Assembly: GCF_014696135.1 (NCBI RefSeq)
Contig: NZ_JACJPP010000022.1
Location: 1-64,000 of the forward strand
Source of the DNA: Nodosilinea sp. FACHB-141
GTDB taxonomy: Bacteria > Cyanobacteriota > Cyanobacteriia > Phormidesmidales > Phormidesmidaceae
Direction: 5' to 3'
DNA length: 64,000 nt
Shown here piece after piece: positions 2,992-6,001 of this stretch. Made by a program: the position numbers and the translations under genes. Each line of letters begins with the position of its first letter. Positions within the stretch are counted from its first letter, which is position 1. The notes under the pieces are model-generated. The model saw only the letters and a program-made list of their open reading frames with translations, was not told where the DNA came from and searched no databases.

Positions 2992-3735
2992 CTACGCTGA
3001 CTGGGGCAACATCGCCGCCATTGCTTTCTCTACCCCCTTGGGGTCACTGAGCAGTTGGGCGGCGATCGCCTGGGCCTGTTCACCGGGGTAGACATCTTCA
3101 ATGCCATCAATTACGGCTTGCAGCGCGGCTTGGGCCACTGTCTCTGGGGCTACCTTAGGCGGCGGAAAATCTTGGCTGCCCTTGGTGTCTACCGTGGCGG
3201 GCATGACGCCAACTACCAGAGTGTTTTGCGCCGCTAGCTCAGCCCGCACCCCCTGGGTCAAGATATAGCCCGCTCCTTTAGACGCGCTGTAGGAGGCATT
3301 CATCGGAAAATTCACTCGGCCTAAAATGCTCAGCATGTTGACGATCGCACCGCCACCATTGGCCTTGAGTACAGGCGCAAACGCTCGACACATCGCCAAC
3401 GTACCAAAGTAATTCACCTCCATTTCGGCTCGCGCGGCGGAGAGATCGGGGGCAGAGATAAAGCCTTTGAGTAAGCCTATGCCGGCATTATTAATCAGCA
3501 AATTGACGTCGCTGCACTGGGCGGCGACAGCCTCTACGGTGGTTTGATCGGTAATATCTAACGCCACAGGAATAATGCGGTCTGGGTCGATAGCCACCAA
3601 ATTATCTAAGCTGCTAAGCTGACGCGCCCCGGCATAGATTCGGGCTGCACCCAGCGATCGCAGGCTGTCGATATAGTATTGCCCTATACCACCGTTCGCT
3701 CCAGTTACCAGTGCTACAGCGTTCTCTACCTGCAT
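2992..3735 (-). CDS. Short-chain dehydrogenase/reductase (SDR)
   Basis: A 247-residue classical SDR. The N-terminus carries the nucleotide-binding motif TGANGGIG, followed by NNAG near residue 86 and the active-site pair YSASKGA (Tyr-x-x-x-Lys) near residue 150 after a conserved Ser region. Such enzymes reduce or oxidise carbonyl or alcohol groups with NAD(P)H; the substrate cannot be told from sequence. The gene is divergent from the HxlR regulator at 3852, and the region between them contains a perfect inverted repeat (3798-3817), so control by that regulator is likely but inferred. Confidence 0.88.
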   Translation of the reverse strand: MQVENAVALVTGANGGIGQYYIDSLRSLGAARIYAGARQLSSLDNLVAIDPDRIIPVALDITDQTTVEAVAAQCSDVNLLINNAGIGLLKGFISAPDLSAARAEMEVNYFGTLAMCRAFAPVLKANGGGAIVNMLSILGRVNFPMNASYSASKGAGYILTQGVRAELAAQNTLVVGVMPATVDTKGSQDFPPPKVAPETVAQAALQAVIDGIEDVYPGEQAQAIAAQLLSDPKGVEKAMAAMLPQSA

Positions 3736-3797
3736 GTCAGCGGCCTTTTTTCTAACCCATTTTCACAACGGTATACTGGGTGCCAAGGTTTGCAAAG

Positions 3798-3817
3798 TAC
3801 TTACTTTCTCGTAAGTA
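3798..3817. promoter_or_regulatory. Inverted repeat, probable HxlR operator
   Basis: TACTTAC and GTAAGTA form a perfect 7-bp inverted repeat with a 6-base spacer between the divergent SDR and HxlR genes. Its position and dyad symmetry fit a binding site for a dimeric winged-helix regulator. A near copy lies at 4915-4933 upstream of the flavodoxin-like gene. Binding by an HxlR protein is inference. Confidence 0.55.
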
Positions 3818-3851
3818 TCTAATCACCGCTGCGATCGGCCAAAATTTAACT

Positions 3852-4184
3852 ATGTCAGAGCCAACTACTAAAGGAACAGAGTTTGTTAAAGCGACTCTGA
3901 ATGTGCTGGGCGGCAAGTGGAAAATTTTGATTCTTTGGCATCTGCGCGATGAAACAAAGCGGTTTAGTGAGCTAAAGCGCCTCATGCCCGAAGTGAGTGA
4001 AAAAGTTTTGACTCAGCAGCTGCGAGAGTTGGAGGGTGACGGCGTTGTGCTGCGGGTTTCACACCTGAGCAAATCGCCCAAGGTTGAGTATTCTTTCACC
4101 GACTACGGTCGAAGCTTAGTGCCGGTGTTGCAGTCGCTGTGCCAGTGGGGAGAGGTGCATTTGGCTCTTTACCATCCATCCTGA
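3852..4184 (+). CDS. HxlR-family winged-helix transcriptional regulator (first copy)
   Basis: A 110-residue protein that is nearly all HxlR domain: LGGKWKILILWHL, then RFSELKRLMPEVSEKVLTQQ, and LEGDGVVLR leading into the wing and TDYGRSL. The start at ATG 3852 (MSEPTTKG) gives the normal family length; an upstream extension to 3780 would run through the inverted repeat. It lacks the conserved N-terminal Cys-Pro found in redox-sensing HxlR members; its only Cys is near residue 97 (SLCQWG). It is divergent from the SDR gene, which it probably controls. Confidence 0.88.
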   Translation: MSEPTTKGTEFVKATLNVLGGKWKILILWHLRDETKRFSELKRLMPEVSEKVLTQQLRELEGDGVVLRVSHLSKSPKVEYSFTDYGRSLVPVLQSLCQWGEVHLALYHPS

Positions 4185-4230
4185 TCGCGACAGGTAGCGT
4201 TCTTGGGGATTGAAAGACCACCTGTCGTGA
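4185..4230 (+). terminator. Hairpin after the first HxlR gene
   Basis: An 11-bp stem (4185-4195 with 4220-4230, one G-U pair) with a 24-base loop begins just after the HxlR stop. It has no clear T-run. It may end transcription of the regulator before the convergent flavodoxin-like gene. Confidence 0.4.
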
Positions 4231-4263
4231 TGTCTCGGCCTTCTTGACCAAAGTATTCTTGGC

Positions 4264-4872
4264 CTAAGCCGCAACAGCTACTTTTTGCGAGGTCCAACGC
4301 TCAGCGGCGACGGCGATGCGCTGGCCAAACAACTCCGAGGTGAGGCGATCGCCCGATTCGAGGGTGGCAGGGCTACCATCCATCGTCATGGGACTCTGGC
4401 CCATAATCCCCAAAAATGACCCCAAGCGGTTGATGCCGTCGGTTTTGCCCTGATACTGACTGGGCATGTCGGCTGCTCCCACCCACACCATGCCGTGTTG
4501 GGCCGCGTTGATGGATAGATACAGCAGCGTGCCCTGCTTGTCGCCGCTGGGAGAACTGGAGTGGGTAAACCCGGCGGCGATTTTGTCCTTCCACTGCTGC
4601 ACAAACCAAGCCGAGCTAGCCCCGTCGATAAACGCTTTGAACTGGGCCGCTACGCCGCTCATGTAGGTGGGGGAGCCAAACATAATGGCGTCAGCAGCGC
4701 TCAGGCGAGCCATAAACCCGTCATCTTGCCAGCGACCAGCCGTGATTTGCTCGCCAGTAATGCGCAGTAGGTCGGCGGTGTGGCCCGCTGTGTGCACTCC
4801 AGTGGCGATCGCTTCGGCCATGAGGTGGGTGTGCCCACCCCCAGAAAAATAAACAATTGCGATGGTTGACAT
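4264..4872 (-). CDS. Flavodoxin-fold NAD(P)H:quinone reductase (WrbA-like)
   Basis: A 202-residue flavodoxin-fold protein. The N-terminus IAIVYFSGGGHTHLMAEAI fits the FMN phosphate-binding loop. GSPTYMSGVAAQFKAFIDG near residues 67-85 and FTHSSSPSGDKQ near 102 match the other flavin-contact regions of the WrbA/NADPH-dependent FMN reductase group. Such enzymes reduce quinones by two electrons and protect against redox cycling. It lies between two HxlR regulators, and a near copy of the inverted repeat at 3798-3817 lies 43-61 bases upstream of its start. A role in quinone or electrophile stress is inferred. Confidence 0.85.
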   Translation of the reverse strand: MSTIAIVYFSGGGHTHLMAEAIATGVHTAGHTADLLRITGEQITAGRWQDDGFMARLSAADAIMFGSPTYMSGVAAQFKAFIDGASSAWFVQQWKDKIAAGFTHSSSPSGDKQGTLLYLSINAAQHGMVWVGAADMPSQYQGKTDGINRLGSFLGIMGQSPMTMDGSPATLESGDRLTSELFGQRIAVAAERWTSQKVAVAA

Positions 4873-4914
4873 AGGGCGGTACGGCGAAAGCTACGTCTAG
4901 ATACTAAAAGTAAC

Positions 4915-4933
4915 TACTTACTGAAGTAAAGTA
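4915..4933. promoter_or_regulatory. Second HxlR-type inverted repeat upstream of the flavodoxin-like gene
   Basis: TACTTAC, a 4-base spacer, then GTAAAGTA. The left half is identical to that of the operator at 3798, and the right half differs by one inserted A. It lies in the divergent region between the flavodoxin-like gene and the second HxlR gene. Likely regulator site; inference. Confidence 0.45.
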
Positions 4934-5050
4934 GGAACCTCAAAGTAACCAGTGGCTTGCAGGAGGAAGTATTCTGGTAGAAGAGCGGGCTAATGGGTGA
5001 AGACCTGTCCACGCCCTGCTCACGTCATTTTGAACCGTCCCCAACCTCCT

Positions 5051-5440
5051 ATGGCCCGATTGACCAACGACCGCAGTTCCTGCCCCGTCAGCGTTTTGAT
5101 GAACCTGCTGTCGGGGCCCTGGACTATGTACATCATCTGGATGCTTTCTACCAGTGGCCCCACGCGGTTTGGAGCATTGCGCCGCCAGGTGGAAGGAATC
5201 TCAACCAAAATGCTCACTGAGCGCCTGCGGATGCTAGAGCAAGAGGGCATTGTCTACCGCCACTACGAGCCCACTGTGCCGCCCCAGGTGACCTACAGCC
5301 TGACGGAGCGCGCGGGCGAACTGGTGACCATTCTCGACCAGCTCAATGGCTTAGCCCAGCGCTGGTACGGCGACTTGCCTAGCTGTGGGTCATCCCAGGT
5401 CCAACCAGAGGCGCTAGAGAAAGCTACAGTTTTGCTTTAA
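5051..5440 (+). CDS. HxlR-family winged-helix transcriptional regulator (second copy)
   Basis: A 129-residue HxlR protein: SSCPVSVLMNLLSGPW at the N-terminus, then RFGALRRQV, KMLTERLRMLEQEGI and the wing ending in SLTERAGEL. It keeps the Cys-Pro near residue 11 that serves as the redox switch in characterised members such as YodB and QorR, so it may sense oxidants or quinones. ATG 5051 (MARLTND) was chosen because the ~18 residues available upstream, from alternative starts at 4993/4997, are not family-like. Divergent from the flavodoxin-like gene. Its last 27 bases overlap the end of the convergent aat gene. Confidence 0.87.
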   Translation: MARLTNDRSSCPVSVLMNLLSGPWTMYIIWMLSTSGPTRFGALRRQVEGISTKMLTERLRMLEQEGIVYRHYEPTVPPQVTYSLTERAGELVTILDQLNGLAQRWYGDLPSCGSSQVQPEALEKATVLL

Positions 5441-6001
5441 GGCTACTTTGAGCTGGCTTTTGTACTCGCGATCGGCGACGACATAAGCCCCAAACCGCTC
5501 CAGGTGGGGGTTCATCATCTGGGCATCGAATAGGGCAAAGTGTCGCTGCCGCAGGTGCTCGACCAGCTTGACCATCGCCACCTTAGAGCCCTCAGAAATG
5601 CGAAAAAACATCGACTCGCCAATAAACGCCCCGCCAATCACCAGGCCGAGAATGCCCCCCGCCAGCTCATCCCCCTGCCAGGTCTCAAAGCTGTAGGCCC
5701 AGCCCGCCTGGTGGAGTTCGGTATAAACCTGTCGGAGTTCGTCTGAGATCCAGGTGGTGTCGCGATCGGCGCAGCCGCTGACTACCTCCTCAAAGGCTTG
5801 GTTGATGGCGACCCGAAAGCGGTTTTGGTTAAGCGATCGCCGCAGCGATTTGGGGTAGCGAAAGCGATCGTCTAGCGGAATCAACGTACGCTGGCGGCTA
5901 GAGTACCAGCCCAGGTCATCGCCCTCGCCATCGGCCATCAAAAAGTACCCTTGGGAGTAACCGCGAACGATGGCATCTAGGTCGTACTTGATGGAGGTCA
6001 C
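5414..6001 (-). CDS. aat: Leucyl/phenylalanyl-tRNA--protein transferase
   Basis: A 195-residue Aat protein. It transfers Leu or Phe from charged tRNA to N-terminal Arg or Lys of proteins, marking them for ClpS/ClpAP in the N-degron pathway. Recognisable blocks: YSQGYFLMAD near the N-terminus, then RQRTLIPLDD, then AYSFETWQGDELAGGILGL and GGAFIGESMFF, then HFALFDAQMMNPHLERFGA. Length is close to other cyanobacterial members. Its 3' end overlaps the convergent HxlR gene by 27 bases, so the final residues (LKQNCSFL) are read from sequence shared with the regulator's tail. Confidence 0.92.
   Translation of the reverse strand: MTSIKYDLDAIVRGYSQGYFLMADGEGDDLGWYSSRQRTLIPLDDRFRYPKSLRRSLNQNRFRVAINQAFEEVVSGCADRDTTWISDELRQVYTELHQAGWAYSFETWQGDELAGGILGLVIGGAFIGESMFFRISEGSKVAMVKLVEHLRQRHFALFDAQMMNPHLERFGAYVVADREYKSQLKVALKQNCSFL

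Follow-up and report, generated by a model that had tools for sequence, protein, structure and literature searches.

The window analysed here is a stretch of 64,000 nucleotides from the cyanobacterium Nodosilinea sp. FACHB-141 (contig NZ_JACJPP010000022.1, positions 1 to 64,000), and our subject is a block of it in which two regulators, here called HxlR1 and HxlR2, are each arranged divergently with an oxidoreductase gene, one inverted repeat lying in each intergenic gap. The partner of HxlR1 is a short-chain dehydrogenase/reductase (SDR) and that of HxlR2 is a flavin mononucleotide (FMN) reductase. The repeats, TACTTACTTTCTCGTAAGTA at 3798-3817 and TACTTACTGAAGTAAAGTA at 4915-4933, are read directly in the window and stand where an earlier reading, made from the letters alone (the sequence-only reading), had put them; the gene calls and family assignments also agree with its layout, in which each repeat separates an HxlR regulator from an oxidoreductase gene running the other way. 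Both regulators do belong to the HxlR / MarR-DUF24 type, with PF01638 scores of 113.2 bits (HxlR1) and 81.4 bits (HxlR2) against a curated cut-off of 20.8. The locus is most likely made of two separable one-site modules that stand next to each other in part of one genus, and not of one regulon. Its features are as follows.

2992-3735, minus strand: SDR of the NCBIfam NF006118 subfamily, putative HxlR1 target (PF00106, E 4e-35; NF006118, 303.9 bits, cut-off 279)
3770-3777: GGTATACT, putative -10 element(s) of the divergent SDR/HxlR1 promoters, proposed from conservation
3798-3817: operator 1, core TACTTAC-N6-GTAAGTA, conserved in HxlR1 relatives (model R1 covers 3770-3817)
3852-4184, plus strand: HxlR1, HxlR-family regulator with no N-terminal Cys and a single Cys, C97 (PF01638, E 5e-33)
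4264-4872, minus strand: FMN reductase, WrbA-like, putative HxlR2 target (PF03358, E 6e-12; 3d7n, E 1e-40)
4898-4952: operator 2, conserved block of about 55 bp, TAGATACTAAAAGTAACTACTTACTGAAGTAAAGTAGGAACCTCAAAGTAACCAG, from the alignment of HxlR2-relative regions
4910-4938: wider dyad of operator 2, GTAACTACTT-N9-AAGTAGGAAC, read from the alignment
5051-5440, plus strand: HxlR2, HxlR-family regulator with a conserved N-terminal Cys11 in a CPV motif (PF01638, E 4e-23)

Each of the two sites is linked to one regulator type. Models of operators 1 and 2 were trained on 21 and 15 sequences, respectively, all from loci outside the window's family, and with these models both sites rank first in the 64 kb on both strands. 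Operator 2 scores 70.5 bits of 84.2 possible (next-best place -8.6). Operator 1 scores only 15.2 bits of 74.9 possible (next-best place -11.9), because its model over-weights the left half, which has decayed in the window's clade. When 291 genomes were scanned, an HxlR2-type gene was found within 400 bp downstream of 44 of the 47 strong operator-2 places (20 of the 44 being training loci, which match by construction, and 24 non-training loci), and an HxlR1-type gene at 38 of the 47 strong operator-1 places (22 training and 16 non-training loci); some of the non-training loci are identical or nearly so to a training locus. The regulator of the other type was found at 0/47 places in both scans. 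Strong places are those with E <=5.7e-5 for operator 2 (47 of 57 listed) and E <=2.5e-5 for operator 1 (47 of 60 listed), the regulator types were set at differing limits (E 1e-32 for HxlR1, E 1e-25 for HxlR2), and one HxlR1 place in the tally (G008:C5) was taken from a separate listing. Four of the ten weaker operator-2 places outside the strong set are also upstream of HxlR2 relatives. Counted from the gene side, in the genomes certainly scanned, a strong site accompanies 44 of 49 HxlR2-type genes and some site 48 of 49, and 37 of 41 HxlR1-type genes have an operator-1 match. In this genome each model has one match, which is a lower bound because the scan scored no more than 19 or 20 first-look candidates in each genome, under strict filters.

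Pattern searches gave similar linkages. All 19 matches of the operator-2 half-pattern in 63 family genomes are upstream of an HxlR gene (one of these a fragment truncated at a contig end), and the reversed control gave 0. Across 388 genomes of the class the perfect operator-1 palindrome occurs 13 times, on 11 occasions upstream of an HxlR1-type gene (one partial), in a search whose reversed control has matches in 10 genomes.

Some strong places lack the expected regulator. Of the nine strong operator-1 places where HxlR1 has no strong match, six adjoin members of the window's SDR family (L092, L191, L192, L200, L216 and L218, with 53-76% identity, L200 being a 64-residue piece); the other three have a weaker HxlR1 relative (L219), a distant SDR of 29% identity (L220) and a broken HxlR1 relative (L221). 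Operator 1 and the SDR are present at L092, L191, L192 and L216 though HxlR1 is broken or absent. At L191, L192 and L092 the HxlR1 copies look broken or partial, the adjacent SDR genes keep operator 1, and regulation in trans by another HxlR1 copy is possible. L221 (G280:C239) amounts to a partner swap, with the broken HxlR1 relative and half of operator 1 lying divergently from a gene of the FMN reductase family usual for HxlR2. Three strong operator-2 places have no HxlR2 gene within 400 bp; two of them (L222 and L224) are beside azoreductase-like genes, recognised by eye, and one (L223) has neither. At L222 (G271:C52) an insertion sequence, again recognised by eye, separates the HxlR2 relative from an azoreductase-like gene with an operator-2 site.

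The sequence-only reading had suggested one small regulon resting on the shared half-site, in which both HxlR proteins would read TACTTAC-type sites and jointly control both enzyme genes. The left half TACTTAC is indeed common to both sites, the operator-2 model ranks operator 1 second in the window (albeit with a score of -8.6 bits), and the FMN reductase adjoins HxlR1 in six genomes belonging to the genus of the window (L007-L012, HxlR2 being cut by a contig end in the sixth). There is also a precedent in Bacillus subtilis, where two DUF24 paralogues, the repressors CatR and YodB, share catDE as a target (PMC6212828). Nevertheless, we regard joint control as unlikely, since the sites are of two distinct types and their models do not cross-score. 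On 8 HxlR1 and 16 HxlR2 regions from within the family, the operator-1 model gave 15.2 to 52.3 bits with the former and -36.8 to -1.8 with the latter, and the operator-2 model gave 31.8 to 78.2 bits with the HxlR2 regions and -23.9 to 0.4 with the HxlR1 regions. The absence of strong places upstream of the other regulator type argues in the same direction, as does the fact that the modules are apart in most genomes having either: the HxlR2 type is present in 55 of 388 genomes, the HxlR1 type in 44 and both in 15. Some cross-talk between the two modules is possible.

The second repeat proved to be only the core of operator 2, the larger block at 4898-4952; it has its dyad axis at 4924 in common with the wider dyad, whose arms pair at 8 of 10 positions in the window and at 10 of 10 in L048 and L049. 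The block is kept next to HxlR2 relatives in seven cyanobacterial families (f1, f10, f15, f19, f23, f24 and f32), and in 34 distinct regions aligned on it the conservation is about 1.5 bits per column versus about 0.2 in the flanks. In the window it includes TACTGAAGTAAAGTA (4919-4933), which has the form TACT-N7-AGTA; the first half of this element is not kept in all relatives. A -10-like TAGTAT on the minus strand (4901-4906) makes it seem that operator 2 overlaps the reductase gene's core promoter. As to operator 1, we compared 31 HxlR1 relatives picked by protein similarity (30 of 51 listed places and one from a separate listing), in which the 14 positions of the core carry no mismatch in 9 cases, one in 8, two in 12 and three in 2. 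At a constant distance of 20 bp from the core stands the hexamer TATACT, exact in 25 of the 31 and slightly altered in the other 6, and the operator-1 relatives show an apparent 18-bp direct repeat.

The two regulators differ in the cysteine at the N-terminus. This residue is present in 62 of 63 HxlR2 relatives (60 of 61 by pattern and two more by eye), and Cys11 of HxlR2 lines up with a Cys in both HypR and HxlR. A second, C-terminal Cys is present in HxlR2 of the window. Among named records, those closest to HxlR2 are from Nodosilinea and Leptolyngbya. The partners at the 63 HxlR2 loci are WrbA-like in 34 cases, azoreductase-like in 15 and of other kinds in 13, with none in one; the tally leaves out L120-L133 and a broken copy in G035, takes G030 and G009 from a separate listing and includes some names given by eye, two of the three SDRs among them. 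The window's own FMN reductase is WrbA-like only, with 55.4 bits against TIGR01755 (WrbA, NAD(P)H:quinone oxidoreductase type IV), under the cut-off of 132.5, and the azoreductase-like partner that was tested falls below the NCBIfam cut-off and matches Flavodoxin_2. The other partners are a membrane-like protein in five cases, an SDR in three, a PIG3/QOR-like quinone oxidoreductase (below cut-off) in one, and an Old Yellow Enzyme, a pirin, a MAPEG protein and an insertion sequence in one each. The membrane-like protein, unnamed and about 134-149 amino acids long, is divergent from HxlR2 relatives at L051, L241, L244, L245 and L249; its sole member tested, that of L244, matches nothing in Pfam or NCBIfam. 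On its other side, HxlR2 overlaps (5414-5440) the 3' end of the convergent aat gene for leucyl/phenylalanyl-tRNA-protein transferase (5414-6001, minus strand), and aat sequence is also found downstream of HxlR2 in five relatives (L038 and L040-L043).

In none of the 31 HxlR1 relatives does the matched frame contain a Cys ahead of residue 90, which excludes an N-terminal thiol mechanism of the YodB/QsrR type for HxlR1. A Cys of the C97 type is present in 30 of the 31, and two of the 31 copies carry an in-frame stop. The partner of HxlR1 relatives is an SDR in 28 of 31 cases, 18 of them from the window's SDR family and 10 of other kinds (nine of these recognised by eye). The proposal of the sequence-only reading that the block answers quinones or electrophiles in the manner of YodB therefore holds up for one half of the locus only: YodB-like electrophile sensing is likely for HxlR2, because its N-terminal Cys is kept and its relatives mostly face FMN reductases (WrbA- or azoreductase-like), and the analogy with YodB is unsupported for HxlR1, where that Cys is missing in 31/31.

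Taken together, we think it probable that the locus holds two self-contained regulator/oxidoreductase divergons, HxlR1 acting with operator 1 and HxlR2 with operator 2, each regulator repressing both the divergent enzyme gene and itself. From the layout and from comparison with relatives we infer how binding, repression, autoregulation, dimer number, promoters and inducers might fit together. HxlR1 would bind operator 1 at its core (3798-3817) and HxlR2 would bind operator 2 (4898-4952). As each operator is at or beside the promoter region, binding would repress the divergent enzyme gene and the regulator's own gene, and, to judge from the repetition of half-sites, a site may hold two or more dimers, operator 2 especially. 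HxlR2 most likely works in the way of YodB and QsrR: an electrophile, e.g., a quinone, would modify Cys11 and release the repressor, whereupon the WrbA-like FMN reductase would be made and reduce the electrophile. HxlR1 would control the SDR and would have to sense otherwise, through its single Cys97 or through a bound carbonyl compound. This is an ordinary kind of stress switch, the control sites of which are unusually well defined.

The regulators might instead activate, as HxlR of B. subtilis does in response to formaldehyde, so that their modification would turn the enzymes on. The family's name-giver, which is the top-scoring solved relative of HxlR2, is such an activator, formaldehyde being sensed through a Cys11-Lys13 methylene bridge (PMC7835342). 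This mechanism is not open to HxlR2, as the Lys13 that it needs is missing from the Cys-Pro-Val sequence of this protein, and HxlR1 has no Cys at the position in question. The apparent overlap of operator 2 with the reductase core promoter also fits a repressor better, and we hold activation to be slightly less probable even than joint control by both regulators.

Besides this precedent of an activating relative, several other observations weigh against two repressor modules with the proposed sites. The dyads are modest, since 4 of 200 column shuffles equal the best dyad of operator 1 and 3 of 200 that of operator 2, and the direct repeat of operator 2 is equalled by 4 of 200 shuffles. A sigma-70 consensus scan gave one weak match near operator 1 (0.6 expected) and none at operator 2, and it gave no promoter employing the TATACT-like element at 3770-3777. 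Four HxlR1 relatives (G305:C265, G134:C32, G124:C94 and G283:C15) have no operator-1 match, and of the 63 HxlR2 loci 13 have partners of other kinds and one has no partner. The N-terminal Cys is lost in one HxlR2 relative, L246. L246 faces a gene of the MAPEG family, and its Cys loss may go with a changed target.

What the repeats are worth by themselves is a separate matter. The bare heptamer TACTTAC is not rare, with 5 occurrences in the window versus 2.6 expected, and the operator-1 20-mer with <=2 mismatches occurs once in the window versus 0.08 expected. In the 5.9-Mb genome, which the sequence-only reading had advised searching for further TACTTAC repeats, perfect TACTTAC/GTAAGTA pairs with N4-8 are found at two places, the second being next to a ParA-like gene, and the N6 repeat with <=2 mismatches occurs at 5 places versus 11 for the reversed control. 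That sole other perfect copy, TACTTACTCATTTGAGTAAGTA (L006:1501-1522 = G000:C30:8603-8624), lies immediately upstream of the gene, named ParA-like by eye, and is probably a partition or plasmid operator. Because mismatched copies are no commoner than the reversed control in the genome, the repeats taken alone are weak evidence and not convincing, and defining a whole-genome regulon by mismatch scan was rejected on the same ground in favour of the conservation models. An RNA element was dropped as a reading of 3600-5200, where no Rfam family reaches the gathering threshold. It is the conservation across genomes that, as judged from the alignments and models, decides that the sites exceed chance. 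That the repeats arose by chance, or belong to conserved promoter sequence with no HxlR connection, is very improbable, for although the mismatched motif is not enriched and the conserved blocks probably take in core promoters, the sites are linked to regulator types in both the pattern and the model scans, and the region lacks an Rfam family.

The two modules give cyanobacteria two HxlR systems with sites defined well enough for direct gel-shift testing, one of them tied to FMN reductases of the kind under YodB control, and they bring to light a large HxlR group without the cysteine that is central to the sensing models considered here. A more ambitious picture, which we put forward only tentatively and think less likely to be right than wrong, is that HxlR1 may represent a widespread cyanobacterial HxlR branch sensing without an N-terminal Cys, perhaps a carbonyl handled by the SDR, and that in one Nodosilinea clade it may have become the neighbour of a thiol-sensing module that uses another operator code, forming a two-input electrophile-defence island in which both operators would be multi-dimer arrays, their code conserved across cyanobacterial families. 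No such modules appear in the titles and abstract openings listed by searches on HxlR/DUF24 in cyanobacteria and on HxlR with WrbA, with azoreductase or with an SDR and repressor; ChlR, a cyanobacterial regulator, is likened to HxlR in one review (PMC4500134).

Among known systems, the HxlR2 module resembles YodB with azoR1 and catDE of B. subtilis in combining a small N-terminal-Cys HxlR protein, a dyad of the TACT/AGTA type and FMN-dependent reductase targets; YodB favours TACT[7]AGTA at azoR1 and senses quinones via Cys6 (PMC8063818). The likeness extends to the azoreductase-like genes that lie opposite HxlR2 relatives at 15 of 63 loci. It has its limits, in that operator 2, at about 55 bp, is longer than the YodB site, WrbA-like proteins are the commonest partner, regulator and target lie divergently and, unlike in the two-Cys scheme of YodB, a C-terminal Cys is present in only 18 of 61 HxlR2 relatives. 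QsrR of Staphylococcus aureus (PDB 4hqe and 4hqm) was found as a weak sequence relative of HxlR2 in the PDB search (E 1e-4 and 7e-4); to go by the title of its reference, it is reportedly a YodB-family repressor working by S-quinonization. HypR (YybR; PDB 4a5m and 4a5n) of B. subtilis belongs to the same family, and it is the Cys of its Cys-Pro-Val that aligns with Cys11 of HxlR2. HxlR itself (PDB 7bzd, 7bze and 7bzg), which differs from both regulators of the window with respect to its Cys11-Lys13 pair, ranks third among the solved relatives of HxlR1. The solved sequences closest to HxlR1 are YtcD (2hzt) and 7kd3, with E 1e-31 and 3e-33, respectively, and both share with it a Cys at the C97 position.

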